Source: Pelagomonas calceolata (lineage: Eukaryota; Sar; Pelagophyceae; Pelagomonadales; Pelagomonadaceae). From it: 64,000 bases of DNA. A program made the translations under genes and the position numbers. Under the pieces are notes generated by a model, which searched no databases, was not told the origin of the DNA, and worked only from the letters and a program-made list of their open reading frames with translations. Where the stretch lies: positions 1,984,001-2,048,000 of the forward strand of contig CAKKNE010000003.1 of NCBI GenBank assembly GCA_918797485.1, written 5' to 3'. Shown here one piece after another: positions 203 to 60,215 of this stretch. Each line of letters starts with the position of its first letter. Position 1 is the stretch's first letter.

Positions 203-224
203 GCTAGCGGTGAGACATACTAGG
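203..224 (+). promoter_or_regulatory. Hyphenated palindrome copy 1 (degenerate)
   Basis: Left arm GCTAGCGG, spacer, right arm ending ACTAGG, about 165 bases upstream of the ATG at 387. It matches the intergenic palindrome family but has several substitutions. Confidence 0.45.
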
Positions 225-386
225 CTTGCTTAAGCTTTTGCAAAAAGAAAGAGCATTATAAACCGAGGCAGCCAACCAGTAGCCTCGTGTAACTCTCTGG
301 GCCTCCCCGGGGCAGCCCCGGCCGAAGCCAGCATGCATGCGTGCGGTGCAGCCGAGAGCCACTCACGATGATGACAGAGCACAATA

Positions 387-1367
387 ATGCGTAGCATCGC
401 GGTCGCCGCAGCAATCCTCGCGCGATGTCTCGCCGACGACGCAGTCAACGTATCGCGTGTCGCGGCCTGGGCGCTGCAGCGCCGGGAAGAACGCATTAGG
501 CGCTGGCTGCCCTCTCAGCCGTTCAATCGCACCGGATTCCGCCTCGTGCCCGTCCCTCCGAAGCTCGAGCGCGGCTTTTTGCTGGTCGCGACGAAGTCGC
601 CCGTCGAACGCCTCCGCCGCAACGAGTCGACCAACGACAACCTCGGGGCTATACTGAGGGACGTGTGCGCCACGCCGTACCCCGCTCGCTTAGTCGTGAG
701 GACGCCGTCGGAGAAGGCGCGCGCCGAGCGATTTCGGCCCTGCCCCAAGATCGAGATCGTGGCCCTCGAGGCGACGGACGCGCCGATGGAAAGGCTGGCG
801 CGCGCGACGTCGCTGCGGCTGTTCAAGGTCGGCGCGCTGGCCGCGAATCTACCCTTGTACAAAGACGGCACCTTGTATCTCGACAACGACATAGCCATTC
901 GACGGGACCGCGCGGACGTGCTGATGGGTTTATTTGATGAAGTGCGGAAGCGGCACAAGGCGCTGGGCGTCACGAAGAGTCATCTCTGCATTCCGCGGGG
1001 CCACTGGACGTCCGAGGTGCCGCCGGGCTACTGCGAGCGGAACGGTGGCATACTCTTCTTCAGTGCGGCAAATCGGTCCGCGGCGCTGGCACGAGAATGG
1101 CTCGAGGAGATGCGGCAAGGCACGTCCAAGGACGGCCGAGACCAGATGCCGTTGCGCAAGGTGCTCTGGCGCCACCGCGACGACGAGGTGTTTGACCTAC
1201 CCGTAGGGATCCAGTGCGGCCCGTACTGCGACCCTTGCAGTACCGACGACCCCCCCTTACTCTGGCACACGAAGCGCATAGACCGAGTGAGATGGGCGCA
1301 GAAGATGCTTTTGAAATCAAGGCGCAAGGGCGTGAGCGCGCGATCCGTGTGCGGCTTCCAGCCATAG
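387..1367 (+). CDS. Secreted glycosyltransferase-like protein
   Basis: 326 residues. Residues 1-16 form a hydrophobic signal peptide, so the product should enter the secretory pathway. The segment LYLDNDIA (about 163-170) carries an aspartate-asparagine-aspartate triad like the DxD metal/nucleotide-sugar site of GT-A glycosyltransferases. About 50 residues later comes ERNGGILFF, the position where such enzymes have a conserved 'N-[GS]-G' strand. The same layout (LDADT, then SNGGVIFW) occurs in two proteins at 29841 and 31053, so three members of this family lie in the window. Donor and acceptor are unknown. The first in-frame ATG gives the signal peptide. It converges with the fibrillin gene with only 9 bases between stops. 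Confidence 0.75.
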   Translation: MRSIAVAAAILARCLADDAVNVSRVAAWALQRREERIRRWLPSQPFNRTGFRLVPVPPKLERGFLLVATKSPVERLRRNESTNDNLGAILRDVCATPYPARLVVRTPSEKARAERFRPCPKIEIVALEATDAPMERLARATSLRLFKVGALAANLPLYKDGTLYLDNDIAIRRDRADVLMGLFDEVRKRHKALGVTKSHLCIPRGHWTSEVPPGYCERNGGILFFSAANRSAALAREWLEEMRQGTSKDGRDQMPLRKVLWRHRDDEVFDLPVGIQCGPYCDPCSTDDPPLLWHTKRIDRVRWAQKMLLKSRRKGVSARSVCGFQP

Positions 1368-1376
1368 TTAAATGTT

Positions 1377-2060
1377 TTAAATCTTACTAGGACCCTCCTT
1401 GACGAGGATGAAAACGTTGCCGCGGTCGCCACGCGAGATCCGCATCTCGTCGTCGAGGTAGGTCGTCGTCAGCACGCCCCGCGCGCTCTTCGGCGCCGGC
1501 AATTTCAGCCAACCAATCCCGAACCGCTTGAAGATGACATCTACCGTCGCGCCGTCATCCCGCGGCTCGAGCTTCGCCCTCACAGAATTCCGCAGCAATC
1601 CGCCTAACACCCACTCCTCGTTCTTCGCCGTGAGCTTTCCCGCGTTAATGTCCTGCAGGATGCGTCGACGCGGCCGGAACGGCCTCATGCGGCGCGTGCC
1701 CAGGATCGATTCGGAGGTCGTGAAGACCAAGCGCCACCGCCCGGAGAGCAGCGGCGACTCGTTCGGTTTCGGCGTGGGGTTTTCTTTTTCGAGCGCCTCC
1801 ACGTGACTGAGCACCGCACCCCGACGCTTTTCGTCCCGGCCTTGCCTTGCCTCTCGCGCCTCTGCGATAAGGCGAATGCGCGGCCCGGCGCAGCCCAATT
1901 TTCGGAACTCCTCGTCGCTCGCATTCAATACCTCGCATAGGTCCACGTCGTCCTCGACGGTCGCGTGCAGGCGCGTCGCGCATCTCCTTGGTGTCGGTGC
2001 CGCCCGCAGGGACAGCGCCTTGCTGCTGACTGCAGCCAGGAGGAAGAGGGCTGCACGCAT
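1377..2060 (-). CDS. Plastid lipid-associated protein (PAP/fibrillin)
   Basis: 227 residues. Residues 1-20 look like a signal peptide, followed by a basic Ser/Ala-rich stretch, as in the bipartite plastid targeting of algae with secondary plastids. The mature part has the fibrillin signature: LLSGRWRLVFTTSESILGT, then QDINAGKLTAKNEEW, and the C-terminal RISRGDRGNVFILVK that closes the lipocalin-like barrel. Fibrillins bind lipophilic molecules in plastoglobules and thylakoids. Whether this one binds quinones or carotenoids cannot be told. A palindrome copy sits 73 bases upstream of the ATG. Confidence 0.88.
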   Translation of the reverse strand: MRAALFLLAAVSSKALSLRAAPTPRRCATRLHATVEDDVDLCEVLNASDEEFRKLGCAGPRIRLIAEAREARQGRDEKRRGAVLSHVEALEKENPTPKPNESPLLSGRWRLVFTTSESILGTRRMRPFRPRRRILQDINAGKLTAKNEEWVLGGLLRNSVRAKLEPRDDGATVDVIFKRFGIGWLKLPAPKSARGVLTTTYLDDEMRISRGDRGNVFILVKEGPSKI

Positions 2061-2132
2061 GTCTAACAGAACTCCTCAATTGGTGCCGTGCGATCTCACA
2101 GAGCCCAAAAAGTCGCGGCCTTGCTTGCGGAG

Positions 2133-2155
2133 TTAGCGGCATGTAAGACACTAGC
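2133..2155 (+). promoter_or_regulatory. Hyphenated palindrome copy 2
   Basis: Arms TTAGCGGC and GACACTAGC around ATGTAA, 73 bases upstream of the minus-strand fibrillin ATG. Confidence 0.75.
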
Positions 2156-2306
2156 ACGCGGATCTTCCGAGGTTTTTTCAGTCTGACGATGTCCAGGGGA
2201 CCTATTTCGACGCCGTAGCGGCGGGAAAGGCCGTCCCGAGACGTAAAGTGGGTACCGCGAGTGATAGAAACAACACGATTAAAAGACGAAACGAGGAGAC
2301 GGGCCA

Positions 2307-3779
2307 CTATCGCTTCTTGAGCGAGCCCGCCTCGGACCCTTCCACGTCGGATGCCCCAGGCGACTCCGCCACGGTCATCAAGGGGCGCGACCCCCACCGC
2401 AGGAGGTCCTGCGGCTTGAGCAGGGACGGCGCCGCGCGCGCGGCGCGCTGGTTCTCCTCGGCGCGCTGATTCGCGACGCGCATGATGCGCTCGACCTGCG
2501 TCGGCGACCGCGGCGACCGCGCCTGGGCCGGCTGGATGGACAGGATCGCCACGAAGGCCGCTACGCCTAGGATGAGAGCGCCGACAGCGACACCGAGGGC
2601 GGCCATCTCGACGTCGTGCTGCTTCGCGTGCGAGAAGCGCTTCCTGATGCAAGCTGGCCCCAGACAAGCCGTCGAGGCCGTCCTCAAGCGAGGAGCCACA
2701 ACAGCCCCGGTCCGTATGGAATATTTCAGCGAGCCCTGCTGGCCGCAGACGCCCCAGCGCAGCCCATCCGGCGCCGGCGCGCCGTCGTCGGCCTCATATA
2801 TATAAGCGACGACGTAGCCTTGATTGACGTTCTTCTGGAGCTCCGGGGCAGAAGCGCCTAATACACCTCTCCTTTTACCTAGACCGTGCGCGAACGACGC
2901 GGCCAACTCGAGAGTAGCACCAGCTCCGGGCGCGTCGGCCGCCGGCGGCGGGTTCACCGTATCCACTAAACCAGAGGGCCAGCCCACGCGCGTGATGACC
3001 ACATCTAGATCCCCAAAACCTTCTTTGGCGAGGGCCCACCGTACACTATCGAGCATGGCATCAATGAGCGCGTAGTACTGCGCGCCGCTCCCGTCGTCGA
3101 CGAATTGCGGCCGATCTCGCGATGGATCCAACGCAAACGTCGCGAAATCTAGAGAGACATCATAATACGAGCTCCGCCAGGCCCCGTAGGGGTCAAGCTG
3201 GATGGCGAAGGGCGCCTTCGTCTCTCGTAAATGGACCAGGACCTCGCGCAGCGGTCCCGGCGCCGCGAAGAGCGACGCGGACGGCGGGTAGGACGAGCGT
3301 AACACGTTGAGGTCAAAAGCCGTGGTCACGGGCACGGACGCATTTATGGTGGAGCAGGCCTTCGAGACGGATCGACTCGCGTTTGCGATCTGAGCTAAGC
3401 GTTTTAAATCAGCACCGGCACCACTCGGCGGCGTCACGCCCACGAGGACGCCGTCCACGTGTTCGTGGACGCTCTTGATTGCGGCGCAGACGCGGTCCGC
3501 CGCGGCGCCGCCCTTCGACACGTCTTCTACTTCCGCGTCGGGTATCGATACAGCTACTCTGGCGCCCGTCCCCAAATTCGCGACGGCTTCCCGTACTTCG
3601 CGCGCGCCGTACGTCTCGAGCTTGACGCGCGCCACGCCTTCGCCTCTTAAACGTCGTAGAGTGCTTGGTCGGCTCGTCACGCCCTCGCGCGGCCGTAGGA
3701 CCACGCCGAGGTTCGGGATGGGCTTCTGTTTCGTCATCCAGCCCGCGGCGGCGGCGGCGACGAGGAGGAGGCGTTTCAT
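2307..3779 (-). CDS. GH17-like protein lacking both catalytic glutamates, membrane-anchored
   Basis: 490 residues. An N-terminal signal peptide (about 1-15) is followed by a GH17 beta-1,3-glucanase-like barrel: NLGVVL at the first strand, VKLETYGA, ARVAVSIPDAEVED, then ITRVGWPSG near 262-270 and WGVCG. In active GH17 enzymes the last motif reads E-[ST]-G-W-P-S, with Glu as nucleophile; here the Glu position is Arg. The acid/base motif V-G-N-E is replaced by LVGVT near 112-116. Both catalytic residues therefore appear lost, which suggests a glucan-binding or structural role; that is inference. A hydrophobic segment (about residues 408-430) near the C-terminus looks membrane-spanning. The ATG is four codons downstream of a possible TTG; ATG is preferred. 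Confidence 0.78.
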   Translation of the reverse strand: MKRLLLVAAAAAGWMTKQKPIPNLGVVLRPREGVTSRPSTLRRLRGEGVARVKLETYGAREVREAVANLGTGARVAVSIPDAEVEDVSKGGAAADRVCAAIKSVHEHVDGVLVGVTPPSGAGADLKRLAQIANASRSVSKACSTINASVPVTTAFDLNVLRSSYPPSASLFAAPGPLREVLVHLRETKAPFAIQLDPYGAWRSSYYDVSLDFATFALDPSRDRPQFVDDGSGAQYYALIDAMLDSVRWALAKEGFGDLDVVITRVGWPSGLVDTVNPPPAADAPGAGATLELAASFAHGLGKRRGVLGASAPELQKNVNQGYVVAYIYEADDGAPAPDGLRWGVCGQQGSLKYSIRTGAVVAPRLRTASTACLGPACIRKRFSHAKQHDVEMAALGVAVGALILGVAAFVAILSIQPAQARSPRSPTQVERIMRVANQRAEENQRAARAAPSLLKPQDLLRWGSRPLMTVAESPGASDVEGSEAGSLKKR

Positions 3780-4290
3780 CGTCAGTAACAAGTTCTGCCG
3801 GTCCTCCCGGAGCCGCGCGCCCCGCCGCGGCGGTAGCGAAGGAGCAGCCTAGCTTTGGCGCCCGGCGGGAGTTGAGCCGCGCACGGCCTCAAGCGTCTTG
3901 CTGGAGCGGTCAGCGCTGTACAGCAGAGGCCCAGGACAGCCCGCCAAGCATGCTTATGTATGCGCGACGGCAAAAACTGTCAATCCCCGGCTCCCTGTTG
4001 TTGAGATGCTAGTGTCTTTACGTGCCGCTAGCTTGCGGCGGCTGCGAACTTGGCTGCGAGTCGACGCGTAGGGCGCTAATTGTGCATAATCGGCCTGGCA
4101 TTAAGCAGGCATTAAGCAGCATAGCAGTGGCATTCATTGCTACCAGCGCTGCTGCATTTGCAGGTCACCGGACAGTCGCTGTGGTGATTTCAGCCCTGCT
4201 CTTTTTGCTGCTTGTTGCAATTGCAGCGACCACTTCGGTGAATTAAGCCCACGCGTGCTCTAGTGTTGTGTAACAGCACCGCAAGCACAA
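3780..4290. other. Divergent promoter region
   Basis: 511 bases between two divergent genes. It holds one palindrome copy and a short direct repeat of GCATTAAGCAG near 4099-4120. No convincing gene: a 74-codon frame at 4022-4246 encodes a hydrophobic stretch but has no other support. Confidence 0.6.
4008..4032 (-). promoter_or_regulatory. Hyphenated palindrome copy 3
   Basis: Reverse orientation, arms GCTAGTGTC and GCCGCTAGC. It lies between divergent ATGs at 3779 (minus) and 4291 (plus). Confidence 0.8.
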
Positions 4291-5389: not shown

Positions 5390-5644
5390 CCGTTGTACGC
5401 CTGGCCCTCAGTGTTGGACTTTCGTGAGTCTCCACGCCATCGAGCCGCCGCGACCACGGGGACAACGTCGCGTCGATGGCGTGGAATCGCCACGCCATCG
5501 CGCAGACGCAGCTACGGTCCTACGGAAGCACGTCGCGTCGATGGGGTTGGGCGCCCGAAACTCGGTGGCGACGGACGAGCAGTGTTGTAGTATGTGATTA
5601 ATTAGGTTTACCCGTGGGGCATCCACTACTCCTCAAAAATTTGA
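5390..5644. other. Convergent 3' spacer with clustered introner cores
   Basis: 255 bases between convergent genes. It holds four copies of the introner core in alternating orientation: CCACGCCATCGAG at 5432, CGCGTCGATGGCGTGG at 5469, CCACGCCATCGCG at 5490 and CGCGTCGATGGGG at 5534. The inner two could form a strong hairpin. They look like nested or rearranged introner relics, with no gene. Confidence 0.75.
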
Positions 5645-8001: not shown

Positions 8002-8045
8002 ATGAGCGTGTCGACACGCTCCTTTCCCACTTTAAAGATTATGTA

Positions 8046-8628: not shown

Positions 8629-8647
8629 AAGTTGACAAAAGGACACG

Positions 8648-9640: not shown

Positions 9641-9986
9641 TTATCCCCTGCGTACTTGGTAAGTCCTGATTGTCCACCTAGCACACGGGTTTCACCCAGC
9701 GGACAATGTACCAGTATGAGGGGGTATTGCCCCGGGGCGCGGCTTCCAAGGGCTCCCGCGTTAAGGAAATTCGGGCTAGCGGCCTGTAAGGCACTAGGGA
9801 TGCCAAGCAAATCGAAAGTGATCGATAAACGCAGCCCGTGAATCACGTTTGGGTGGATAGAGATCGGCGTGCATCCGTTCGCTGCGTGCACCGCTCAAAT
9901 CTAACAGCTCCCGCGTGCAGCAGTGCGTTGACCGCTCAAGGCTACGAGCTCGACACGCCGCGTGCAGCAATAAACAGCGCGAAGCA
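9641..9986. other. Spacer with palindrome copy, no gene
   Basis: 346 bases between two plus-strand genes. The only recognised element is the palindrome at 9775-9798. Confidence 0.55.
9775..9798 (+). promoter_or_regulatory. Hyphenated palindrome copy 4
   Basis: Arms GCTAGCGGC and GGCACTAGG around CTGTAA, 189 bases upstream of the ATG at 9987. Confidence 0.75.
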
Positions 9987-14978: not shown

Positions 14979-15002
14979 GCTAGCGTCCTGTAAGGCACTA
15001 GC
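14979..15002 (+). promoter_or_regulatory. Hyphenated palindrome copy 5
   Basis: Arms GCTAGCGTC and GGCACTAGC around CTGTAA, followed by AAG. It lies 89 bases upstream of the minus-strand ATG at 14890, inside a divergent spacer. Confidence 0.82.
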
Positions 15003-19995: not shown

Positions 19996-20426
19996 CCTGG
20001 CACGTATGCTCACTCTGCAAAGTGTGCTGCCTCACCCAGTGAGCAGTGCGCGGCAGTGGCTGACTGAACGTGACTTTTTTGATACGTTGCCTTAGTTATC
20101 GATCAGATCGTGTCCAGAAACGGGTTCCCTATCCTAAAACAAACACGTATGCGCGTAGTGCAAGCCACCCGCGCTAGCGGCGTGTAAGACACTAGCAAGC
20201 TGCAGCCTGTAGCAGCGCATCGCATGCCTCAGCCCAGTTTGGAACTTGCGGCAGGCTCATTTCGACATATAAGCGACTCGCGACAGTGATTTGAACGCGC
20301 TGCTAGCGCGACGGCATCTGTGCGATCTCAGCAGCCAAAAACGCTGCACTGCAGCGAGGGCGACGCGACGCTGTCGTCGCAGACGTCGCAGGGGTGGTAA
20401 CAGACGAGGCAGACACCGAGCAAAAA
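19996..20426. other. Divergent promoter region
   Basis: 431 bases between the methyltransferase and BUD22-like ATGs. It holds palindrome copy 6; nothing else is recognised. Confidence 0.6.
20173..20196 (+). promoter_or_regulatory. Hyphenated palindrome copy 6
   Basis: Arms GCTAGCGGC and GACACTAGC around GTGTAA, followed by AAG; the best-conserved type. It lies in a divergent spacer. Confidence 0.85.
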
Positions 20427-22905: not shown

Positions 22906-22928
22906 CACTAGCGGTGTAAGACACTAGC
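22906..22928 (+). promoter_or_regulatory. Hyphenated palindrome copy 7
   Basis: Arms CACTAGCGG and GACACTAGC around TGTAA, followed by AAT. It is 99 bases from the minus ATG (22807) and 145 from the plus ATG (23073). Confidence 0.8.
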
Positions 22929-23586: not shown

Positions 23587-24516
23587 TTACCGGGGCAGGA
23601 GCGGCTCGACGTCCTCGCCGTCGTCGCGCTTCGGCGGGTTCGCCTTCTTGTAGCGCTCCATGAGGCCCTTCCAGGCCACGGAGAAGACGATGGACGAGAT
23701 CCCGTTGCAGAGCAGCTTCGCCGGCAGGCCCGACCAGAGCAGGCCCCCGAGGCCCCGCGCCGCGAGGACCTCGGAGACGGCCGCGGCGTAGCCGATCGGC
23801 ACCTTCGACGTCTGGACGTAGACCTTGACGACGCGGATGCTGTTCGACACCGTGTCCGACACGGCGGAGCAGACGAAGCCGATGAGCGCGCGCCGCGCGA
23901 GCTTGAGCCGGGGGCCGAAGTCCGGCACGGCGCCCTCGAGGACGTTGTTCGTCGCGAACCAGGGGTAGTGGCCCACGAGCGTCGCGAAGGACGCGCCGAG
24001 CGCGCCGCCGTACAAGGAAAAGAGGCCGCCCGCGGCGATCTTCGCGCGCAGCGCGGCGCCCCCGCTGACCTGGAGCGTCGTCTTGACCGTGTCGAAGGGG
24101 AAGATGAAGATGCGCCAGAGCGCGGCGCAGCACGACGCGACGATCGTCTTCGCCGCGACGGGCAGCGCCGACGCCTCGAGGAGCGCGAGCGCGCCCTCGT
24201 TCGCGGCCGTGTCGCCGAACCGCGCGAGCGGCGCGGAGAGCAGCGCGATCCAGAGGCCCTGGTAGAAGCGCGGCACGCCGCCCTCGCGGTAGAGGTGGCG
24301 CATCGTCGCGAAGAAGCCGGAGCCCGTGGCCAGCTGGATGTTGATCGTCGTGCGGAGCCACATGAGCAGCAGCACCTGGAGGACCATGGCCGCGGCGCCC
24401 GGCGCGCCGCCGCCGAGCGCGGCGCGGCACGCCTTCCGGAGGAGCGACGGGCCGGGCCGCCGCCGCGCGGGCGGGCCCTGGACCTCCAGGGCGTGCGGCG
24501 GCTTGCGCTGGGCCAT
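23587..24516 (-). CDS. Mitochondrial-carrier-family transporter, divergent
   Basis: 309 residues. Three tandem carrier-type modules are visible: one around RTTINIQLATGSGFFATMRHLYREGGVPRFYQG, one around FPFDTVKTTLQVSG...GLFSLYGGALG, and one around NSIRVVKVYVQTSK...RGLGGLLWSGLPAKL. PFDTVKT matches the Px[DE]xxK signature; the first and third modules are degenerate at that site. The GG..FY-G and GL..LW-G pieces are typical. The substrate is not predictable. Carriers sit in the mitochondrial inner membrane, more rarely in peroxisome or plastid membranes. Confidence 0.82.
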   Translation of the reverse strand: MAQRKPPHALEVQGPPARRRPGPSLLRKACRAALGGGAPGAAAMVLQVLLLMWLRTTINIQLATGSGFFATMRHLYREGGVPRFYQGLWIALLSAPLARFGDTAANEGALALLEASALPVAAKTIVASCCAALWRIFIFPFDTVKTTLQVSGGAALRAKIAAGGLFSLYGGALGASFATLVGHYPWFATNNVLEGAVPDFGPRLKLARRALIGFVCSAVSDTVSNSIRVVKVYVQTSKVPIGYAAAVSEVLAARGLGGLLWSGLPAKLLCNGISSIVFSVAWKGLMERYKKANPPKRDDGEDVEPLLPR

Positions 24517-24873
24517 GACGTTGCGCGTGCGGAGGCGTCCGAGCGCGATGGTTGTGTTTTTCTTTTTGGGGTCTCCTGCTCGATCTGTCGGCTGCGGCTC
24601 TATCTATCTTTTGGCTGCGGCAGGTCGGCAGCTACCGAGGGCACAGCCAAATCTCGATATTTGTGGTTGAATTGCAGCGCTTCAAATGTGCGCTGGGAGC
24701 GTCCTTTTGCTAAGCCAACGCGTGAATCCAGGTTGCTGAAACGGGGCGCCTCGAGCACGTTTTTTTGGGCTCACTTTTGGATGCCTAGTGTCTTACAGAC
24801 GCTAGCGGGAAACGGGGGGCCCACACATTTCAGCGCCCGCGACGACGCGACGAACCGAAGGCGAGTGGGCGAA
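24517..24873. other. Spacer with palindrome copy, no gene
   Basis: 357 bases between two minus-strand genes. It contains palindrome copy 8 only. Confidence 0.55.
24784..24806 (-). promoter_or_regulatory. Hyphenated palindrome copy 8
   Basis: Reverse orientation, arms CTAGTGTC and GACGCTAGC around TTACA. It is about 268 bases upstream of the minus-strand ATG at 24516. Confidence 0.8.
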
Positions 24874-25877: not shown

Positions 25878-28800
25878 TCACTTCCGATGCGCCTCGAGGA
25901 GCGCGACGATGGAGGAGTGGCGTTTGTTTTTTGCGACGGACAGCGGCGTATCGCCGTCCTCGTCCGCCCGATCGACCTCCGCGCCGTTGTCCAGCAGCAG
26001 CCGCGCCGCGTCGACGTGGCCTTCTTCGCAAGCGACGAACAGCGGCGTCTGGCCCCACTTATCCGCCGGATCGACCTCCGCGCCTTTCTCCAGCAGCAGC
26101 CGCGCCGCGTCGACGCGGCCGTTCTCGCAGGCGGCGAACAGCGGAGTCCATCCGAGGTCATTCGCCTGATTAACGTCCGAGCCTTTCTCCAGCAGCAGCC
26201 GCGCCGCGTCGACGTGGCCGTTCTGGCAGGCGATGTACAGCGGCGTCCGACCGTCTTTTGTCGCCCGATCGACCTCCGCGCCTTTCTCCAGCAGCAGCCG
26301 CGCCGCGTCGACGTGGCCCTTCAAGCAGGAAACGAGCAATGGCGTCCAGCCGTCCTCTTCCGCTTTGTCGACCTCCGCGCCTTTGTCCAGCAGCAGCCGC
26401 GCCGCGTCGACGTGGCCTCCCCAGCACGCTGCGTATAATGGCGTCCGGCCGTCCTCCGTCGCCCGGTCGACCTCCGCGCCGTTGTCCAGCAGCACCCGCG
26501 CCGCGTCGACGTGGCCCTTCTCGCAGGCGATGTACAGCGGCGTCCGGCCGTCCTCCGTCGCCCGGTCGACCTCCGCGCCGTTGTCCAGCAGCACCCGCGC
26601 CGCGTCGACGTGGCCCTTCTCGCAGGCGATGTACAGCGGCGTCGCGCCCTGCTTCTCCGCCCGATCGACCTCCGCGCCGTTCTCCAGCAGCAGCCGCGCC
26701 GCGTCGACGTGGCCCTCCTGGCAAGCGACGTACAGCGGCGTCGCGCCGTCCTCGTCCGCCCGGTCGACCTTCGCGCCTTTATCTAGTAGCAGCCGCGCCG
26801 CGTCGACGTTGCCGTGCTGGCAGGCGATGTACAGCAGCGTCTCGCCGCGCCAGTTCGCCCAATCGACCTCCGCGCCAGCGGCCTTCGCCTCTGCTTCGGC
26901 GTGCTTCAACGCGTCCGTCGTCTTTGAGGTTAGAAATTCCTCGCAGTCCGTATGGCCCGCGGACCGCGCCCAGCCCGCCGCGTCGTAGCCCTGGAAGTCG
27001 GTTTGAGCGGCGTCGGCGCCGTGCTTCACGAGCTGCTCGCACAGTCTTAAGTGACCGGCGTCCGCCGCGTGCATCAAAGGCGTCGCGCCCGTGTGCATGT
27101 CCGCGACCGACGGATCTGCCCCGACAGCCAATAAAGCAATCACGGCGTCCGGACATAATGTGGATGAATTCGTCATGTAGTGTAAAGCTGTCGCGCCGGA
27201 CGGTAACGTCACGTCGACGTCCGCGCCTCGCTCCACCAACATCTCGACGAGGTCGCCCGCGCCGTACTGCGCGCTCAATAGTAACGGAGTGTCGCCCGTC
27301 TCCGGATCCACTCGATTGACCTCCTCATCACTTGCATTCTGGACGTCGCCCTTCGCGTTGCTCTCGACGTCCTCGGCGCCCTGGCCCCAGTACGGTAACG
27401 CGCCTCTTAACGCTACGAGGAGGTTGGGAGGCGGCGTGTAGTCGTAGGGCTGCGTCGTGCGCGGCCGCCCGAAGACGGGCTCGATCTCGTCTGGCAAAGG
27501 AGGCTGCTTTTTCTCCTCGGGGGCCTTGGCTGCTGCCGCGGCAAGGCGTTTCTCGGCCTCCGCCGTGGCCGCGTCAGCGCGCTCCTTTTCTTCTTCAGCG
27601 GCCCTAGCGTCGGCGGCGCGGACCTCGTCGCCATTGGCAGTGCGCGCCGCCGGCTCCACGCTTCGCTCGAGCGACCGCACGAGGTCGTAAATTCGATGCG
27701 AGCGCCCGTTGATCGCCTTAATTTTGTCGAACGTCACCTGAAGCTCGCCGACGAGGCCCGACGACACATGTCCGAGGGAAAAGTAGATGCAGCGCCACCC
27801 CGACGGCTTCGGCTCGCCGAAGCTATCTTTCACGCGCACGACTTCGAGGTCACCGCCGCCGTTGAGGAGCGAGAGCTGGCGGATCCCTTCGTGCAGCGAG
27901 GACACGGTCGTAAACAAGGCCGTGGCGCGCTCGACGTCGACGACGCGGCGGACGTCGCCTTCATAATCGCGGGTCGCCTTCTCGACGCAGCGCTCCCGAA
28001 GTTTCGTGGGGCCCCTCCGATATTCCCCGCCAGCGATCCGGATGATACCACGGATGACGTCGTGGAAGTCGTCGCGGCCGCGCTCCGCGAGGCCCAGTAG
28101 ATCTTCGACGGCTTTGCACGATTTGGGCTGCAGCGGCGTCTCAGCGTGCCGTTTTGCGAGCAGCGCGCACAAGTCGAGCATTTCGCCGCAGTGCGGGTCG
28201 CGCGCGTAGATATCCCAGGCCTCCTCGTACGCCTCGACGTCGCCGCGCAGCGCCTTGGCGAGCCCCGCCCGGAGCGTGTCAAGGTCCTTCTCGTCGGCGC
28301 AAAGGAGGTCGTCGAGCTTCGCTTCGAGCGGTCCCATCTTCGGGCGCGCCGCCGCGACGCCAAAACATTCGACAGCCCAGTCCGCCAGCTCCGGGACGAC
28401 GGGCGCTTCAGGCCTCGGGAGCCGCTCGTCGCGGACCAGCGCGGCCACGATCTGAGGGTGAGACTTCCCCTCCCACGGCTTTTTGCGCGTGAGAAGTTCC
28501 CAGATGAGCACGCCGTACGCATACGCGTCGGCGCTCGTGCCGACGCGCGCGCCGTCCTCGAAGGCCTCGGGGGCCATGTACGCGTAGGTTCCCATGACCG
28601 CCGTCATGGTCGACAGCGTGTGATTCAGCTCCTTGCTGATCCCAAAGTCCGCGAGCTTGCAGCGCAGGCCGTGCTCTGCGACGAGCACGTTCTGCGGCTT
28701 CAGGTCGCGGTGGACGATGCCGTGCGCGTGGAGGTGCGCGAGTCCCGCGGCGACGTCGCGCGAAATGTGGAGGACGTCCTGGTGGTTGAGGGGTCCGCGC

Positions 28801-29840: not shown

Positions 29841-30767
29841 ATGGGGCGGCGCGCGCGGCTAGTCCTCGGCCTCCTCGCCGCCGTCGACGCGATCCCCGAC
29901 CTCGGCGTCATTTATGCCGCGAGTGGCCGCCTCCACGTCCTGATGGCGACGGAGTCCGCGCGGCCCCTGAAGTCGCACCTCGTGCACATCCACACGCAAA
30001 CGGAGGACGACCACGCGACGTGCGAGAGGCTGCGCGACGGCCAGAAGTGGTGGTCCTGCGTCGACGTCACGCGGGGCGAGCACCGCGCGGCGCAGCTCTG
30101 GCGGCACCTCGCGAAGTACACCTCCGCGGAGTCGGAGTGCCGGAGGCTGCACGGCGACGCGCCGAACCGCATCCTGAAGATCGTGGCCATCGCCGCGGCG
30201 CCCTTCAAGCGCAACGTCTTCCTCGACGCGGACACGGTGCCGTGCTTCGACCTCGCGACGCTCTACACGCAGCTCCGGGCGACGGAGGAGCGCGGTTTGC
30301 TGGACCTCTACGACGTCCTCTTCGTCCCGGCGCGCGAGTCGGTCCCCCGGGCGCCGGCGCGCCTCGCGTCTTGGGCGCGCGCGCCGGCCTGGGTCGAGTC
30401 GAACGGGGGTGTGATTTTTTGGCGGCGGACGCCCGAGACGGCGCGCCTCTTCCACCGCTGGCTCGCGTCGTATTGCCGGGGCGGCGACGACCTCGCGCAC
30501 TTCAACGGGGGCGACCAGCACATCCTCTCGCGCGAGGTCCTGTCCGCGGTGCAGCGCGACCGCCTGCTGGTCTACCACTTGCTACCCATCTGGAACTATC
30601 GGTCGTGGCGGCGCCACTTTTCGAACAAGCAGGAGTGCTGCTCGTCGGCGTCGGTCACCGAGGAGCTCAGGCCCCTGCCCATCTACATCGACCACGGCTG
30701 CCGGAAGCCGCGGGACTACGTCAAGCGGACCGGGAACGCGTCCTGGTTCCTGGGGGAGGGGGGGTAA
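29841..30767 (+). CDS. Secreted glycosyltransferase-like protein, intronless paralogue
   Basis: 308 residues with an N-terminal signal peptide (about 1-16). GVIYAASGRLHVLMATESARPLK, then NVFLDADTVPCFDLATLYTQLR: LDADT is a DxD-type nucleotide-sugar/metal site as in GT8/GT77-like enzymes. ESNGGVIFWRR and FNGGDQHILSREVL match the acceptor-side strand and a 'DQ' motif of such folds. IWNYRSWRRHFSNKQECCSS and YIDHGCRKPRDYVKR follow. Highly similar to the next gene, so the two are a tandem duplication. Probably a Golgi or ER enzyme; specificity unknown. Confidence 0.78.
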   Translation: MGRRARLVLGLLAAVDAIPDLGVIYAASGRLHVLMATESARPLKSHLVHIHTQTEDDHATCERLRDGQKWWSCVDVTRGEHRAAQLWRHLAKYTSAESECRRLHGDAPNRILKIVAIAAAPFKRNVFLDADTVPCFDLATLYTQLRATEERGLLDLYDVLFVPARESVPRAPARLASWARAPAWVESNGGVIFWRRTPETARLFHRWLASYCRGGDDLAHFNGGDQHILSREVLSAVQRDRLLVYHLLPIWNYRSWRRHFSNKQECCSSASVTEELRPLPIYIDHGCRKPRDYVKRTGNASWFLGEGG

Positions 30768-31052: not shown

Positions 31053-32101
31053 ATGAGGCTACTCTCACTCGTTTGCCTGGCGCGGTGCGCCGTCGACGCG
31101 TTGCCCGACATCGGCGTCACCTACGCCGCGACCGGACGGCTCAACGTCCTCATGGCCGCGGAGTCCGTGCGCCAGTTGTCGACGCGTTATGCCCACATTC
31201 ACACGCTGAGCGCCGACGACCACGCGACGTGCGAGCGCCTGCGCGGCGGCGCGCCCTGGAAGTGCGTCGACGTGACGTCCGGCAGCTCGCACGCCGCGCA
31301 GCTCTGGCGCCACTTGGCCAAGTACACGGCGCCGGACGCGCCGTGCCGCAATTCACATAGTATCGCGCCGACGCGGCTCCTGAAGATGGTCGCCATCATG
31401 GCGGCGCCGTTCCGGCACAATATTTTTCTGGACGCGGACACGGTGCCGTGCTTCGACCTCGCGACGCTGTACACGCAGCTGCGGGCGGGCGGCGGCATGG
31501 GCCTCCTCGACGTCTACGACCTGCTGCTCGTGCCGGCGCGCGAGAGCGTGCCGAGCGGCCCCGCGGCGGCGAAGGGGACCTGGCGCGCGCCGGCCTACGA
31601 CAAGTCCAACTCGGGCGTCATTCTCTGGCGCAAAAGCCGCGCGACAATGAAGCTCTACCATGCCTGGATCCACGCGTACTGCTCGGAGCTGTGTGGAAAT
31701 CAAATTTACGGCGCGTTCGTCCTGAATCGCCGCGTCGTCCTCCACGCCATCGACGCGACGCCTGCTCACTGGTTGATTTGCACACAGGCTCGGAGAAGAA
31801 GCTGGGCACGCGGGGGAGCGCGGAGAGCAACGGCGCGGACCAGAATGTTCTCTCCTACGAGATCTTGCACGCGGTAAAGCGCGACGGGCTCCTCGTCTAC
31901 AGCCTGGGGCCGTGGTGGAACTATCGATCGTGGCGACGCCACTTCGCCAACAAGCCGGGGTGCTGCTCGTCGGCGTCGCGAGTAGTTGAGGCGGTATCTG
32001 GAGACCTGCAGCCGCCGCCGGTGTACATCGACCACGCGTGCCGCAAGCCGCGTGAGTACGCCGAGCGGTCTGGGAACGCGTCGTTCTTTTTGGGGCGTTG
32101 A
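31053..32101 (+). CDS. Secreted glycosyltransferase-like protein, paralogue with a young introner
   Basis: Exons 31053-31692 and 31788-32101 give 317 residues. Signal peptide 1-16; GVTYAATGRLNVLMAAESVRQL; HNIFLDADTVPCFDLATLYTQLR (DxD site); KSNSGVILWRKS; exon 2 carries SNGADQNVLSYEILHAVKRDG, WWNYRSWRRHFANKPGCCSS and YIDHACRKPREYAERSGN. Every block has a counterpart in the gene at 29841. Without splicing the frame runs into unrelated sequence after AYCSEL. With the 95-base intron removed, the protein resumes collinearly with its paralogue, plus four extra residues contributed by the insertion. Start at the ATG preceded by TGATC. Confidence 0.83.
31689..31787 (+). mobile_element. Introner element with perfect 8-bp target duplication (intron 31693-31787)
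   Basis: 99-base element. Ends are CTGTGTGGAAATCAA and TTGATTTGCACACAG (one mismatch over 15). GCTCGGAG occurs directly before (31681-31688) and directly after (31788-31795). The internal core CCACGCCATCGACGCG is at about 31742-31757. Donor CTGT^GTGG and acceptor CACAG^ keep the reading frame. The intronless paralogue at 29841 shows the insertion is younger than the duplication. Confidence 0.95.
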
Positions 32102-32159: not shown

Positions 32160-32184
32160 CCTAGCGGCCTGTAAAGACACTAGC
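32160..32184 (+). promoter_or_regulatory. Hyphenated palindrome copy 9
   Basis: Arms CCTAGCGGC and GACACTAGC around CTGTAAA (one base longer spacer), followed by AAA. It is 286 bases upstream of the ATG at 32470. Confidence 0.82.
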
Positions 32185-41317: not shown

Positions 41318-41340
41318 GCTAGCGCCATATAGACACTAGC
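41318..41340 (+). promoter_or_regulatory. Hyphenated palindrome copy 10
   Basis: Arms GCTAGCGCC and GACACTAGC around ATATA, followed by AAT. It lies in the divergent spacer, 164 bases from the ATG at 41154 and 146 from that at 41486. Confidence 0.8.
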
Positions 41341-44656: not shown

Positions 44657-45815
44657 GGCGGCCCTTCAATTCGACCGCGGGCGCCCGTTTCCCTGCCAGC
44701 TGCCGGTGTTTTTCAAGGAGGGCTCTCGACGTCACAGCCGTCTAGCGAGACGCCGCGAAACTCGGCCAGTCGTGCGCCGCAGTCCTGGCGGGGCCCAGCA
44801 AAGATTCCTTGCCGCTGCGAGGCCGTAGGAACGCCACTTAGGGCCAATTCATCCGCGGAGCTAAATTTTGCAGGGCACGCGGGTTTTTTTCGCATCTTTT
44901 GGGAGCACTCCCGCCGCGCCCCGGGGAAGCGGACCTGCACGCTGGCGACAACTCCCGATTTCCGGCCGTTTTGCGCTAGAGGTTTAGGTTGGAGGTGCCG
45001 TCTTCGTCATGATGTTCCGCGGCCTCCCCCGGCGCGGAGCCCAAGAGCGACGCTGCCCTTGTTCAGGGCGCCACCGGCGGGCAGCACGGACGCTGCCGCG
45101 CCAAAGGCTGCCCCCAAATCGGCAGCCAACATATGCGAAGAGGATACACTCACCCGCTGCAGGGCCTGCTGCGCCGCCTGTGGCCAGAGCGCGCCACGCA
45201 ACACTTCGTTAGCGCGCGCGCGTACTCCGCCGCGTCCGGCGCCGATACATCAGATAGCCTCCGCTGCGATGCTCGTTCGACGCGGCGCGCGGCCGGGACG
45301 CGAGCACAACCACAGAACACACGACGTGCGCACCGCATGCGCATTTTGGATGCGCGGCGGCGACGCCTCGTGTCGCGGAACGGCGCCGGCGTTGTGGGTG
45401 TTGCAAGCAGCCACTCGGAGTCGTGGCGTCCGCGTCAGCGTCCGGACTCGGAGCCAGGGACCATCCCTCCCGTACGCGTTCGGTGTAGTATGGCGGGGGA
45501 GACCGGGGCGCCTCGAGGGCGCGCGTCCCACGGATTGACTGGGGGTCGCCGGTCCTTGCGGCCGCGAGTCCGCCGGTCGTGCGGAGGCGCACCAGTTGCG
45601 CCTTGGAACCGCAGAGAGGCGTCTTTCTGGGACCCTCTAGCGGAAGAGAAGTCAAATTGGCGCGTCAAAAATGTGGGCTAGCGGCGCAAGACACTAGCAA
45701 AACTTGCTGAGCTGGGTGGGATGACAGCGAGTTACACGTGCCTCCTACTGCACCGTCGACGCTCGTCTCACTGTAAAAATACAAGCCTCCTCAACTGAAC
45801 GCAACCCTCTAAACA
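44657..45815. other. 1.16-kb spacer without a supported gene
   Basis: Divergent spacer between genes starting at 44656 (minus) and 45816 (plus). Several long frames exist on both strands, as expected at this GC content, but none has a recognisable domain, a convincing ATG context or a targeting signal. It contains palindrome copy 11. It could host a non-coding transcript. Confidence 0.5.
45677..45698 (+). promoter_or_regulatory. Hyphenated palindrome copy 11
   Basis: Arms GCTAGCGGC and GACACTAGC around GCAA (spacer one base short), followed by AAA. It is 118 bases upstream of the ATG at 45816. Confidence 0.8.
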
Positions 45816-47826: not shown

Positions 47827-47844
47827 TCGAAGTCGTCGTCGTAG
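47797..47844. repeat. GTC trinucleotide microsatellite
   Basis: At least nine consecutive GTC units, then a slightly interrupted continuation. It adjoins palindrome copy 12. Confidence 0.9.
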
Positions 47845-47859
47845 CGTAACGACACTAGC
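47841..47859 (+). promoter_or_regulatory. Hyphenated palindrome copy 12 (degenerate)
   Basis: GTAGCG, then GTAAC, then GACACTAGC followed by AAA. The right arm is intact and the left arm decayed. The only copy not clearly upstream of an annotated gene. Confidence 0.5.
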
Positions 47860-49320: not shown

Positions 49321-49323
49321 CTG

Positions 49324-49347
49324 GCTAGTGTCTTACAGGCCGCTAGC
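49324..49347 (-). promoter_or_regulatory. Hyphenated palindrome copy 13
   Basis: Reverse orientation, arms GCTAGTGTC and GCCGCTAGC around TTACAG. It is 306 bases upstream of the ATG at 49653. Confidence 0.83.
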
Positions 49348-50237: not shown

Positions 50238-51356
50238 TCACTGGTAGACGCCCCGCGCCGACCCCCAGTCCAGCATGGGGTGGCCCTTCATCGCCTCGCA
50301 GGGCGTGAAGTCCTGGCGCGGGCATTTTGTTTTCAGGAACGCCTCGACCGGAAAAACGACTGGTGTTGTCAACATCTCAAAGCACCCGGGCATGCGCTTC
50401 GTCCGCGACCCTAACGTCGACTTCGTCCCCAGATGCGAAAAGATGTTCCAGCGGAAGCCCAGGTGCGGTCGGTTATTTTTGTAGGTTTTTGACTGGTCGC
50501 GCTCCCCGGCGAACCACTCCACGACCAAATGGTCCGGCGGCCGCCGGGCCTGATGCTCTTCCAGGTAATCCGCAAACGGCAACAAGTCCGCATCTTTGAG
50601 AAAAATGCCGTTCATCCCAAACGAGGCCCGGATGGCGAGCCAGTCGGGATAGAAGCGCGAGGCCCTTTCAATAATGTACGCCATGGCCCGGAACCCATGG
50701 TCGCAGAGCGCCATGTCGTCCTCCCCGAACACAAAGTACCTCGCTTGATCATGCACTATCCTCAACACCGACGCCACGTCGCGCGTCTGCTTCCGCACGC
50801 GCCAGCCCGGTCTATTTGCATTTCCCGCGACGTGGGGCGGGTCGACGCGGTTCGCCGTGAGGGCCGGGTCCTCGGCTTTTTCTGAGAAGCGGAAAGCTGG
50901 ATTCGTGGAGAAGCGCTCCTTGGCCTCGTCGAAGCGCTTGTGCCCGGCGCCGTGCACGTTCACGACAAAGACGCCGACGGCGCCCGCTAACATACTTTCG
51001 GCCGGAAACAATTCGCGCGCGAAGGCGTTGAGCGTGGTCCCGAGGTAGTCCTCGTCATTCAAGCGCGGGACCGTGGGCAGTCCTACTGCCAGCCAGAGTT
51101 TTTTTGTTGTCGTCGCCGGCGGAGTTGTCGCGCGGTTGACAAAGGCCGCCGCCGCGGCGGGCGCCGGGGGCCGCGTCGTCGCGTGCGTCGTGACCTGCGT
51201 TCCTGCGAGCGCCCGCAGCCTCTGCAATTCCTCTTTGTAGTGCGCGTCGCGGTCGGTCAGCTGTGATGTTGATTGATGCAGCACAATTAACGCAATGCAA
51301 CTCAGGCCGACGAAGAGCCAGGGCAGCGTGGCTTTGCGCACTTTGAGCTTGGCCAT
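50238..51356 (-). CDS. GT54/MGAT4-like type II membrane glycosyltransferase
   Basis: 372 residues. A short cytosolic head (MAKLKVRKA) and one signal-anchor helix (about 9-30; LPWLFVGLSCIALIVLH) give type II Golgi topology. A stem of Thr/Pro/Ala leads to LWLAVGLPTVPRLNDEDYLGTTLNAF, the opening strand of GT54-like domains. YFVFGEDDMALCDHGFRAMAYII carries an EDD metal-binding triad. AIRASFGMNGIFLKDADLLPF and FRWNIFSHLGTKSTLGSR follow. MGAT4 adds beta-1,4-GlcNAc branches to N-glycans; the substrate here is unproven. Palindrome copy 14 lies 221 bases upstream. Confidence 0.75.
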   Translation of the reverse strand: MAKLKVRKATLPWLFVGLSCIALIVLHQSTSQLTDRDAHYKEELQRLRALAGTQVTTHATTRPPAPAAAAAFVNRATTPPATTTKKLWLAVGLPTVPRLNDEDYLGTTLNAFARELFPAESMLAGAVGVFVVNVHGAGHKRFDEAKERFSTNPAFRFSEKAEDPALTANRVDPPHVAGNANRPGWRVRKQTRDVASVLRIVHDQARYFVFGEDDMALCDHGFRAMAYIIERASRFYPDWLAIRASFGMNGIFLKDADLLPFADYLEEHQARRPPDHLVVEWFAGERDQSKTYKNNRPHLGFRWNIFSHLGTKSTLGSRTKRMPGCFEMLTTPVVFPVEAFLKTKCPRQDFTPCEAMKGHPMLDWGSARGVYQ

Positions 51357-51576: not shown

Positions 51577-51600
51577 GCTAGCGGTATGTAAGACACTAGC
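51577..51600 (+). promoter_or_regulatory. Hyphenated palindrome copy 14
   Basis: Arms GCTAGCGGT and GACACTAGC around ATGTAA, followed by AAG. It is 221 bases upstream of the minus-strand ATG at 51356. Confidence 0.84.
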
Positions 51601-57485: not shown

Positions 57486-58214
57486 CTAGACGAACTCTGC
57501 CTCCGAGTCCTCGTCCACGCCGTCCACGTTGTTCTCCTCGAGCGGCGCCGGCGCCGCCGCGTACGTCACGTCCGCGCGGCGGCGCTTGCCCGTGATGATG
57601 TTCGACAGGTCCATGCCGTTGTCGTCCTCCTCCATTTGGTCGCGCTGGCGCTTCGCTGCTTTTATTTCCTTAGCCTGCGTGGAACGGAGCGTCGCCAGGC
57701 CTGCCGCGGCTCTCGTGCGGCCGCATCGACGGCGTCGAGGCGGCGCGGCATCGCATCGACGCCGTCGCGGCGACCACGCCATCCTGAAGTTCGTTTCCCA
57801 CGCTGAGTCACTGACGGTCGGCGCCTCCCCCGAAATCTCGTAGCCCTTGGCCACGAGGCGCTCCTTGAGCTCGGCGGCCTTCGCGTCGGCGTCGAGGTCC
57901 TTGAGGCCTTTGAACAGCGTCGGCCCCGCGCGCACCGCCTGCCCCATCTTCTTCAGCTGCACAATGCGCGCGTCCTCGGTCGATTCCGGCTTAGCTTTTT
58001 TGGCCGGCGGCTTCTTTTCCTTGGCCGGCGTCGGCGGGTCGATCAGTAAAGTGACGTAGGCCGTGAGCTCCTCCTTGAGCGGCTTGAGGGCGTCCTTCTC
58101 GAGCCCCAGCGACTTCTCGAGCGTCCGGCGCACGGTCTTGACGGTCATCGTCTGCTTGTCCGCCTTCGCGACGATCTTTTTGATCTTTTTCTTGTGCTCG
58201 GCGGTGAGTTCCAT
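57486..58214 (-). CDS. DEK-C domain protein with an embedded introner
   Basis: 242 residues as an open frame, 199 if a 129-base in-frame introner is removed. Residues about 1-58 (KKIKKIVAKADKQTMTVKTV, LEKSLGLEKDALKPLKEELT) form a DEK C-terminal-type helical domain that binds DNA. A Lys/Pro linker and a second helical segment (IVQLKKMGQAVRAGPTLFKGL, AAELKERLVAKGYEI) follow, then a nuclear basic/acidic tail (KEIKAAKRQRDQMEE, GKRRRADVTY). A chromatin protein is likely. The segment between TVSDS and AKEIKAAKRQ is Arg-rich and of introner origin, so the spliced 199-residue form is probably the real one. Confidence 0.72.
   Translation of the reverse strand: MELTAEHKKKIKKIVAKADKQTMTVKTVRRTLEKSLGLEKDALKPLKEELTAYVTLLIDPPTPAKEKKPPAKKAKPESTEDARIVQLKKMGQAVRAGPTLFKGLKDLDADAKAAELKERLVAKGYEISGEAPTVSDSAWETNFRMAWSPRRRRCDAAPPRRRRCGRTRAAAGLATLRSTQAKEIKAAKRQRDQMEEDDNGMDLSNIITGKRRRADVTYAAAPAPLEENNVDGVDEDSEAEFV
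57675..57803 (-). mobile_element. In-frame introner in the DEK-C gene, likely GC-AG intron
   Basis: Minus strand GCGTGGGAAACGAAC at the 5' end and GTTCCACGCAG at the 3' end; three core copies inside (GATGGCGTGG, CGACGGCGTCGATGCG, CGACGCCGTCGATGCGG). The 129 bases equal 43 codons without a stop. A GC donor at 57803 keeps frame; the GT at 57801 does not. Confidence 0.72.
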
Positions 58215-58574
58215 CGTCGCGCGTCAATTTGTTTGTAGTGCGGAGCGAGGTGACGCGTTTTTGAAGTTGCCGCTAGTAACTACCAGTGCGTGGTTACGTA
58301 AATTGCTATTCGCGTGACAAATGGCGCCGCGCGTTTTGAAATACAGGTTTGAAAGCAGCTACAGTGCGAGGCTGCGCACTCAGTGGTGCCGGGCGCAGTG
58401 CTCTCGCTTCTGGCGTGAGGCGTAGGAGATATTGAGCGCAGTCTGTGCGCGCTGTGCTATAGCCCAGGAAGCAGCCGGTGCTGATCTACAGCCGCGGGAC
58501 GCTGCGCTTGGCGCGCTTGCTAGTGCCTTTACAGGCCGCTAGTACGCCATCGCCGCACCGTTCACAAACTAATT
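58215..58574. other. Spacer with palindrome copy, no gene
   Basis: 360 bases between minus-strand genes; only palindrome copy 15 is recognised. Confidence 0.55.
58519..58543 (-). promoter_or_regulatory. Hyphenated palindrome copy 15
   Basis: Reverse orientation, arms GCTAGTGCC and GCCGCTAGT around TTTACAG. It is about 305 bases upstream of the minus ATG at 58214. Confidence 0.8.
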
Positions 58575-59957
58575 TTACGACACCTCCGACGCCTCGTCCT
58601 GAAAGAACCGCGGCGACACCGCGCCGCCGAGGTGCGAGATGGGCACGTAGCCGCACCGCGGCTCGCCCTCGCCGTCGTCGACGGCGACCGCGAAGACCCA
58701 GCCCGACGCGTCCGCGAGGTGCGCCGTCCGCACGAGCAGCGCCTGGTCCCGCTCGATGCTCAACTCCTGGTCGCCGTCGCCAGTGAACGCGTGCGCGGCT
58801 CTCACGAACGTCTCGGCGTTGCCGGCGAAGGGGTCAAATGGCAGCGGCGCCGGGGCCGGCGCTTCCACAGGTTGAGGCCTTGCCATCGAGGGCAGCGCCG
58901 CCCGCGCGTCCTCCAATCGTCGCTGGGCCTCCCGCACCTCCGCTTCCAGGCGCTCCTGGGCGGCGCGGACCTCGGCCTCGAGCGTGGCCACGGCACTCGT
59001 CCGTCGTCTCGTAAGATTGCCGCGGGCCACGCGTTGGAGAGCCGTCGCCGCGTCGCGGGCCGTCGTCGGCGGCGGCGGCGCGCGGCGCGGCCGGTCGGCC
59101 GGCCGCTCCAGCGACTTTCGCAGCTGCTGGACGGCCTTGGACGGCGATTGGGGAGCCGGCGCCTCCTGGACCGCATCGCGCGTCGCCAGCTCCCGTTCCA
59201 ACTCTTCCACACGCCGCTGCAGCGCCGCCGTCACGTCGCGCCGCACCGCCGCCTCCTCGCGCTCCACTTCAGCCGCTAATCGAGCGCGCTCCGCCTCAGC
59301 AGCGCGCCGATCCGCCGCGCGCCGCGCCCGTCGCAACGCAGCGACGTCCTCGGCGACTCGCCTCGCTTCCTCATCAAGTTCCCGTTCCCGCCGCTCCTCG
59401 ACGGCCTTCAGCCGCGCCGCCAGCGCGTTCGTGGCGCCCAAGAGGACGCCCTCATCCTCATCCTCGACAAAGACCTCCTGCTCCTCCTCCTCGGACGGTG
59501 ACACCTTTGCTGGAAGCTCGGTGTAGTCCGTCGAGGCGCGCCACCAGGGCCCCCTCGGCGCGTCGCGCTGTGCGCGCCAAGTTAACGCACACCGCTCGAC
59601 GTAGTCGACGGCGACCGCACCGGGGCCCAGTTCCCTCATCACATGGTTTCCTAGCTCGCCATAGCTCGTTAAGTGAGACGTGTCGACGGCGCCATCCACA
59701 GTATTGGCATCGGCGACCCTCAACACCTCGGCCACCAACGCGTCGTCGTCGTCGGGCTCGTCCAGCGCCGCGACGGCCTCCCTCCAAGCGTCCGCCGCGG
59801 CCTCGGCATCCCCAAAACCCTTATTATCGGGGCGGTGCACGTCGACCACCACATTCGTTGAATCACCGGTGCCGTAGGGGTCCTCGTCGAGCCACTTCGT
59901 GAATAGTTCGCGGGCGAGAGGAACCCCATTGAGATAAACTGGGCCTGTCGGCCGCAT
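58575..59957 (-). CDS. Coiled-coil, IQ-motif and SH3-domain protein
   Basis: 460 residues from the ATG before RPTGPVYLNGVPL. A head region (about 1-150) without a known fold includes DPYGTGDSTNVVVDVHRPDN. A charged coiled coil (about 185-300) follows. ATALQRVARGNLTRRR (about 325-345) is an IQ-type calmodulin-binding motif, then more coiled coil. The last 70 residues form an SH3 domain (VRAAHAFTGDGDQELSIERD, ALLVRT, WVFAVAV, CGYVPISHL) with ALYDY-like and SxxY-like elements. A cytoskeletal or endocytic adaptor is the best guess. Divergent from the AlkB gene. Confidence 0.75.
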   Translation of the reverse strand: MRPTGPVYLNGVPLARELFTKWLDEDPYGTGDSTNVVVDVHRPDNKGFGDAEAAADAWREAVAALDEPDDDDALVAEVLRVADANTVDGAVDTSHLTSYGELGNHVMRELGPGAVAVDYVERCALTWRAQRDAPRGPWWRASTDYTELPAKVSPSEEEEQEVFVEDEDEGVLLGATNALAARLKAVEERRERELDEEARRVAEDVAALRRARRAADRRAAEAERARLAAEVEREEAAVRRDVTAALQRRVEELERELATRDAVQEAPAPQSPSKAVQQLRKSLERPADRPRRAPPPPTTARDAATALQRVARGNLTRRRTSAVATLEAEVRAAQERLEAEVREAQRRLEDARAALPSMARPQPVEAPAPAPLPFDPFAGNAETFVRAAHAFTGDGDQELSIERDQALLVRTAHLADASGWVFAVAVDDGEGEPRCGYVPISHLGGAVSPRFFQDEASEVS

Positions 59958-60192
59958 GGTGCTGCCAAAACGCTGCCCGCGTCGAGGCTGGGCGCCGGCG
60001 TGGCACGGACTCCCGCTGCCTGGCGCTTGCGAGGACGGCGTAGGCTTTACCAGCCTTCCGAGCCACTTTTTTAGCACCTCGAGGACGCAAACCGGCGCTC
60101 GCGGGCAGCCCACTAGGATCATCATTCGAGGGTCCGAAGTAATGGTCTTCGGTGGGGACGGAAAGGCATGCCGTCGACGGCATCTGTTCACA

Positions 60193-60215
60193 GCTAGCGG
60201 CCTTAAGACACTAGC
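60193..60215 (+). promoter_or_regulatory. Hyphenated palindrome copy 16
   Basis: Arms GCTAGCGGC and GACACTAGC around CTTAA, followed by AAG. It is 236 bases from the minus ATG (59957) and 77 from the plus ATG (60292). Confidence 0.84.

Follow-up and report, generated by a model that had tools for sequence, protein, structure and literature searches.

A 64-kb window of the Pelagomonas calceolata genome (contig CAKKNE010000003.1, positions 1,984,001 to 2,048,000) was analyzed for a short, imperfect palindrome that recurs between its genes. The window, meaning this whole stretch, was the scope of the analysis, with all gene models and start codons (ATGs) predicted ab initio. Its guanine-plus-cytosine (GC) content is 65%, and an ab initio codon model yielded 44 coding segments covering 68% of the sequence, the majority apparently single-exon. 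A Pfam scan taking in 40 of the 44 segments identified eukaryotic families on both strands (NAP, V-ATPase E, EAP30, mitochondrial carrier, PAP-fibrillin and ankyrin-kinase), as expected for a compact, probably photosynthetic eukaryote; GC content, gene density and introner-like introns are in keeping with a pelagophyte. The whole genome is described in the accessible text of PMC9481584 as 32.4 Mb long, with 63.6% GC and 0.45 introns per gene.

The first-pass annotation had listed 16 copies of the palindrome. Fourteen are near-exact, with at most two mismatches over 18 arm positions to GCTAGCGGC-N(4-7)-GACACTAGC, and are termed strong copies here (Table 1). A weight matrix derived from these 14 scored them at 34-43 bits; the copy at 203 followed with 13.4 bits and all other matches reached 9.3 bits or less, including the 47840 region (9.1 bits). 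Thirty shuffles contained a mean of 0.27 matches of at least 12 bits, and their top score was 23.0 bits, so neither 203 nor 47840 is significant by score. At four mismatches, the level of these two, the window held 14 sites versus a shuffle mean of 8.25. The copy at 203 is at best a degenerate one, and 47840 is a right half-site. Placement was assessed on 15 copies, the 14 strong ones plus 203, with 47840 excluded from every count given for this set. Two of the listed starts were off by one (2133 and 22906, actually 2132 and 22907), and the spacer, given as 5-7 bases, spans 4-7 (4 in two strong copies, 5 in three, 6 in six and 7 in three). The sequence TGTAA, said to be usual in the spacer, is complete in nine of the 14. 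Palindrome words also led an unbiased count of intergenic 8-mers, where GACACTAG, AGACACTA and CACTAGCA were the most over-represented and a word of an introner-like unit came next; they were likewise among the most over-represented intergenic 7-mers. Chance or an assembly artefact has almost no likelihood as an explanation, with 14 strong copies seen versus a mean of 0.05 such sites per shuffle (40 order-3 Markov shuffles), copies that differ in spacer and flanks, and the occurrence of an exact copy in a marine metagenome that was assembled independently.

Table 1. Palindrome copies, introner-like elements and intergenic AAACCCG copies in the window (spacer in bases)
Feature	Position	Strand	Class	Spacer	Context
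Palindrome	203..224	+	degenerate, weak		ATG at 387 lies 174 bp downstream
Palindrome	2132..2155	+	strong	6	5' of PAP-fibrillin gene 1377-2060(-)
Palindrome	4008..4032	-	strong	7	divergent spacer, 2307-3779(-) (GH17) / 4291(+)
Palindrome	9775..9798	+	strong	6	5' of ACBP/ankyrin gene 9987(+)
Palindrome	14979..15002	+	strong	6	divergent spacer, M1 peptidase gene (-) / 15243(+)
Palindrome	20173..20196	+	strong, arms = consensus	6	divergent spacer
Palindrome	22907..22928	+	strong	4	divergent spacer
Palindrome	24784..24806	-	strong	5	5' of mitochondrial carrier gene 23587-24516(-)
Palindrome	32160..32184	+	strong	7	5' of 32470(+)
Palindrome	41318..41340	+	strong	5 (ATATA)	divergent spacer, DnaJ gene (-) / CDP-alcohol phosphatidyltransferase gene (+)
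Palindrome	45677..45698	+	strong	4	45816(+) 128 bp downstream; opposite gene 1,030 bp away
Palindrome	47840..47859	+	right half-site only (GACACTAGCAA), probably no full element		adjoins GTC repeat
Palindrome	49324..49347	-	strong, arms = consensus	6	49653(+) 317 bp downstream
Palindrome	51577..51600	+	strong	6	5' of 50238-51356(-)
Palindrome	58519..58543	-	strong	7	5' of 57486-58214(-), weak DEK_C match just below Pfam cut-off
Palindrome	60193..60215	+	strong, arms = consensus	5	divergent spacer
Introner-like element	4808				in or between coding segments
Introner-like element	31742				in or between coding segments
Introner-like element	35914				in or between coding segments
Introner-like element	46740				in or between coding segments
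Introner-like element	52966				in or between coding segments
Introner-like element	5432-5490				3' spacer
Introner-like element	39548				3' spacer
Introner-like element	50233				3' spacer
Introner-like element	57466				3' spacer
AAACCCG	8367				intergenic
AAACCCG	9686				intergenic
AAACCCG	16447				intergenic, convergent spacer
AAACCCG	18264				intergenic
AAACCCG	25763				intergenic
AAACCCG	29686				intergenic
AAACCCG	30884				intergenic
AAACCCG	34409				intergenic
AAACCCG	37339				intergenic
AAACCCG	44880				intergenic

In agreement with the first-pass annotation, coding sequence is avoided: 0 of the 14 strong copies fall in the coding segments that make up 68% of the window (P about 1e-7). 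Seven lie in divergent spacers, as annotated, and seven in tandem spacers; 13 spacers of the divergent type are present, and the share of copies in them is not a significant enrichment (P=0.26). Distance to the ATG is better placement evidence than absence from convergent spacers. The claimed position 5' of an ATG was borne out for all 15 copies, which precede a predicted one by 84-317 bp. All 15 are within 1-330 bp upstream, a zone holding 58% of intergenic bases (P=3e-4); for a tighter zone of 75-325 bp, set post hoc, P is 1e-6. The 15 copies occupy 15 different intergenic regions (P=0.006), and both orientations occur, as their strands confirm. An insulator or architectural site is an alternative, with a bound protein separating transcription units or anchoring chromatin loops and promoter proximity being incidental. 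A long site of ~31 bits with 14 strong copies per 64 kb, one per spacer and free in orientation, would suit that role, and in yeast the insulation of divergent promoter pairs is ascribed to Tbf1 and Mcm1 (passages of PMC9481977). However, copies are equally common 5' of single genes, and all 15 keep within 330 bp of an ATG even in spacers of 1-2 kb with room elsewhere. We consider insulation an unlikely role.

The element takes the form CTAGCGGC, 1-4 slack bases and TAAGRCACTAGC(AA), with a total length of 22-25 bp. Most commonly a left module, CTAGCGG(C/T), precedes the slack bases and a right module, TAAG(A/G)CACTAGC(AA), follows them. Information amounts to ~31 bits over 23 columns, and AA is favoured 3' of the right arm. 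An alignment of the 14 strong copies and one copy from outside the window, with indels placed between the left arm and TAA, showed two invariant stretches, TAGCG within the left arm and AG.CACTAG on the right. Departures from consensus number 14 and are confined to six of the 18 arm positions (P=0.003 for six or fewer by random placement, strong copies having been chosen by total mismatches and not by mismatch position).

The palindrome is consistently imperfect. All 14 distinct rows have C.A at the sixth pair, 12 of 14 lack pairing at the eighth, and in five of 14 the outermost pair is broken. Two-sided change, the mark of compensation, was seen in 0 of nine pairs, and the proportion of paired cells (75%) was no better than in shuffles. 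Inverted arms at a suitable distance from the ATG might recall an RNA hairpin in 5' leaders, acting on translation or stability. The conserved mismatch, the broken pairs, the lack of two-sided change and the presence of both orientations relative to genes make such a hairpin extremely improbable, and neither Rfam (at gathering score) nor ARAGORN returned a structured RNA or tRNA match. Because the imperfection is consistent and the arms do not covary, the element is read as duplex DNA in which two similar, unequal half-sites are contacted, rather than as a hairpin.

The first-pass annotation had also raised a tiny promoter-targeting repeat. Such a dispersed repeat or transposon relic, with inverted ends and almost nothing inside, would have settled in open promoter DNA; the inverted arms, the density (14 copies per 64 kb), the use of both orientations, the missing continuum of weak sites and the introner-like elements of the same window are all compatible with it. 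At their exact borders, 0 of 14 copies show a direct repeat of 2-8 bp, and 60-bp flanks share 27-28% identity between copies versus 27% from base composition (30% over the nearest 20 left-flank bases, with one pair at 65%). No longer element with the same arms was detected; the six exact left arms present in the window each belong to a 22-25 bp copy. Substitutions are non-random across arm positions, and at most one copy (203) looks decayed. On this evidence the repeat is disfavoured, and we rate it as very unlikely. Substitutions in few arm positions, together with flanks near background, point to constraint on contacts and not to a larger unit.

The element is constrained in sequence, present as one strong copy per promoter region, positioned at a characteristic distance from the ATG and free in orientation. 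We propose that it is probably a cis-acting promoter element, a putative site where duplex DNA would be bound by an abundant, sequence-specific factor, marking about half of the promoters in the window. Such marking would depend neither on strand nor, to judge from the genes seen, on function. The bidirectional promoter element of the first-pass annotation is well supported as a promoter element and only half right as a bidirectional one, with seven strong copies each in divergent and tandem spacers. In the proposed mechanism, the factor would bind the element as duplex DNA, a dimer or a long zinc-finger-like protein gripping the two CTAG-containing halves with two DNA-binding modules. Once bound, it may keep the common promoter region open or position the flanking nucleosomes, and transcription might then start on one or both sides, as with yeast general regulatory factors.

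On the best reading, the element would work in a manner resembling the sites of these yeast factors. Reb1, Abf1, Rap1 and Tbf1 organise promoters, help to maintain nucleosome-depleted regions and affect divergent transcription (passages of PMC9481977, and PMC11069190). The likeness lies in promoter sites of promoter-organising factors, the role of the palindrome being a putative one. Sites of this type are promoter-proximal and rarely coding, and the palindrome was found in no coding segment (0/14) and always within 330 bp of an ATG (15/15). The yeast sites are not known to be related to it in sequence, and the palindrome is longer. Vertebrate ZNF143-type promoter sites are also long, information-rich and promoter-proximal; they differ in sequence and lineage. 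Genes next to the palindrome span mixed Pfam families (fibrillin, peptidase, carrier, DnaJ and phosphatidyltransferase), as judged by eye. A regulator of one specific regulon, in place of a general factor, would be consistent with the presence of the element at only about half of promoters (20 of the 40 gene entries that have 100 bp or more of upstream sequence). With adjoining genes that look functionally mixed, this alternative appears quite unlikely.

Several observations weigh against a promoter-factor binding site. Scores are all-or-none (at least 34 bits, then 13.4, then at most 9.3), and most transcription factors would be expected to leave a tail of weaker sites, which the palindrome lacks. 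This bimodality is the oddest feature of the data, and suggests either that incomplete sites have no effect or that the element spread recently. A 3-base variation in the spacer is unusual for a rigid dimer. Adenine-plus-thymine content within 100 bp of copies is 42-45%, compared with 40% for all intergenic and 33% for coding sequence, which speaks for a promoter site, but the enrichment is small. The reported absence from convergent spacers does hold (0 copies in 14 such spacers), but ~2 were expected by base count and the deficit is not significant (P=0.12). Three of the seven tandem copies (9775, 24784 and 58519) are closer to the 3' end of the neighbouring gene than to their own ATG; another (32160) is about equidistant between the two. 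If 47840 were counted, its next ATG would be 1.8 kb away and it would have its spacer in common with 49324. The ab initio origin of gene models and ATGs also counts here.

A pattern scan of genome contigs identified one exact copy outside the window, in a stretch (L001) of contig CAJWEZ010000013.1 from a marine 'Spirochaeta' metagenome-assembled genome (MAG). The pattern was strict, with only two of the window's 14 strong copies fitting it as judged by eye, and little can be read into the absence of other genome-contig matches. This copy ends 125 bp before the ATG of an open reading frame (ORF, 2295-3041) with a targeting-like N-terminus, as judged by eye, and no Pfam match. A partial NicO nickel-transporter match (profile 148-282 of 287) is present in the same stretch. 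GC content is 71-78% at 2401-4000 versus 55-63% to the left, and the flanking genes look bacterial by eye, the left one being without a Pfam match. The region ~1845-3640 is a probable algal fragment in a bacterial MAG contig, chimeric assembly being likely. The window codon model does not help to assign its origin, with 0.12 bits per codon for the ORF (0.13 for the lowest gene of the window), 0.38 for NicO and 0.36 for the bacterial-looking neighbour. No further copy with exact arms, or with at most three mismatches to the 24-base form, was found in the same MAG. Pattern scans of viral contigs gave nothing convincing: a single match (L003) has a different spacer and 45% GC and was judged to be chance, and seven right-half matches all came without a left arm. 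Protein searches of viral contigs returned no relatives.

Promoter motifs have been described in other stramenopiles. The diatom iron-response palindrome ACACGTGC, 8 bp long, lies ~200 bp before the translation start and is found in full in 45 gene models, at a distance of 150-250 bp (passages of PMC3491386). It resembles the present element as a palindrome at a similar place in a photosynthetic stramenopile, and differs in length, in sequence and in its 45 gene models versus about half of promoters here. The oomycete core promoter, an initiator-like plus flanking sequence (INR+FPR) of 16-19 nt, is likewise a stramenopile promoter motif, but lies near the transcription start site and is not described as a palindrome in the accessible text of PMC3599244. 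Within the accessible text of the literature searched, subscription papers and supplements being outside its scope, we found no description of the palindrome sequence or of a pelagophyte nuclear promoter element. Literature matches from one search for palindrome oligos included none on algae, as judged from listings; in another search, CACTAGC occurs once in PMC5343412, on green-algal triglyceride synthesis, among the matches listed. The words promoter and motif have 0 occurrences in the main text of the Pelagomonas and Chrysophaeum papers searched, and the motif given in the accessible part of an Aureococcus virus paper is viral and differs from the palindrome. Some of the most numerous algae of the ocean are pelagophytes. 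A near-invariant long site at about half of promoters would be a handle for isolating the factor, would allow promoters to be mapped from sequence alone and expression constructs to be built, and would reveal how promoters common to divergent genes are organised in a compact, gene-dense genome.

A second motif, AAACCCG, may mark other promoters. Ten of its 12 window copies are intergenic, one of these in a convergent spacer. Of 44 gene entries, four had too short an upstream region and were dropped; among the other 40 (100 bp or more), 19 have the palindrome only, 12 AAACCCG only, one both and eight neither; the spacer 44657-45815 holds both motifs, each near a different gene. Counted by gene, exclusivity gives a Fisher value of 4e-4, but divergent genes have regions in common, and no significance was reached when regions were permuted and all 7-mers considered (0.81), leaving the AAACCCG class only a lead. 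It is possible, if doubtful, that pelagophytes have two main promoter classes, one with a single palindrome bound by a lineage-specific general factor and one with AAACCCG, together serving most genes (32 of 40 window entries). If true, 14 copies per 64 kb extrapolated to 32.4 Mb would give ~7,000 copies, and the palindrome would rank among the longest protist promoter sites of high copy number.

Introner elements, which are dispersed and form introns (passages of PMC9860276 and PMC9481584), have counterparts in the window. These introner-like elements have ends of type TGTGGAAATCAA...TTGATTT.CACACAG and an inner CCACGCCATCGACGCG, and no sequence in common with the palindrome was seen. Convergent 3' spacers contain the inner units too, partly as inverted pairs. 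Both kinds of sequence are dispersed, and some introner-like introns of the window also have inverted ends; introner elements form introns with other ends, whereas the palindrome is promoter-proximal, 22-25 bp long and outside coding segments. Introner ends were rejected as its origin, the CCACGCCATCGACGCG unit belonging to introner-like introns with other ends and none of its listed places being a palindrome copy. An introner element as such was also rejected, with no palindrome copy inside any coding segment.

Among the genes, 25878-29405 (-) is a large one whose product combines numerous ankyrin repeats with a protein kinase domain, with a DNA repeat period of 99 bp and 67-83% identity to the reference copy. 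Genes 29841-30767 and 31053-31877 adjoin and have common stretches of 74-84% DNA identity, probably through tandem duplication. A 22-bp tandem repeat (CTCTCAGGCAATGGCTCACAAG) occupies positions 4-135 at the start of the window.

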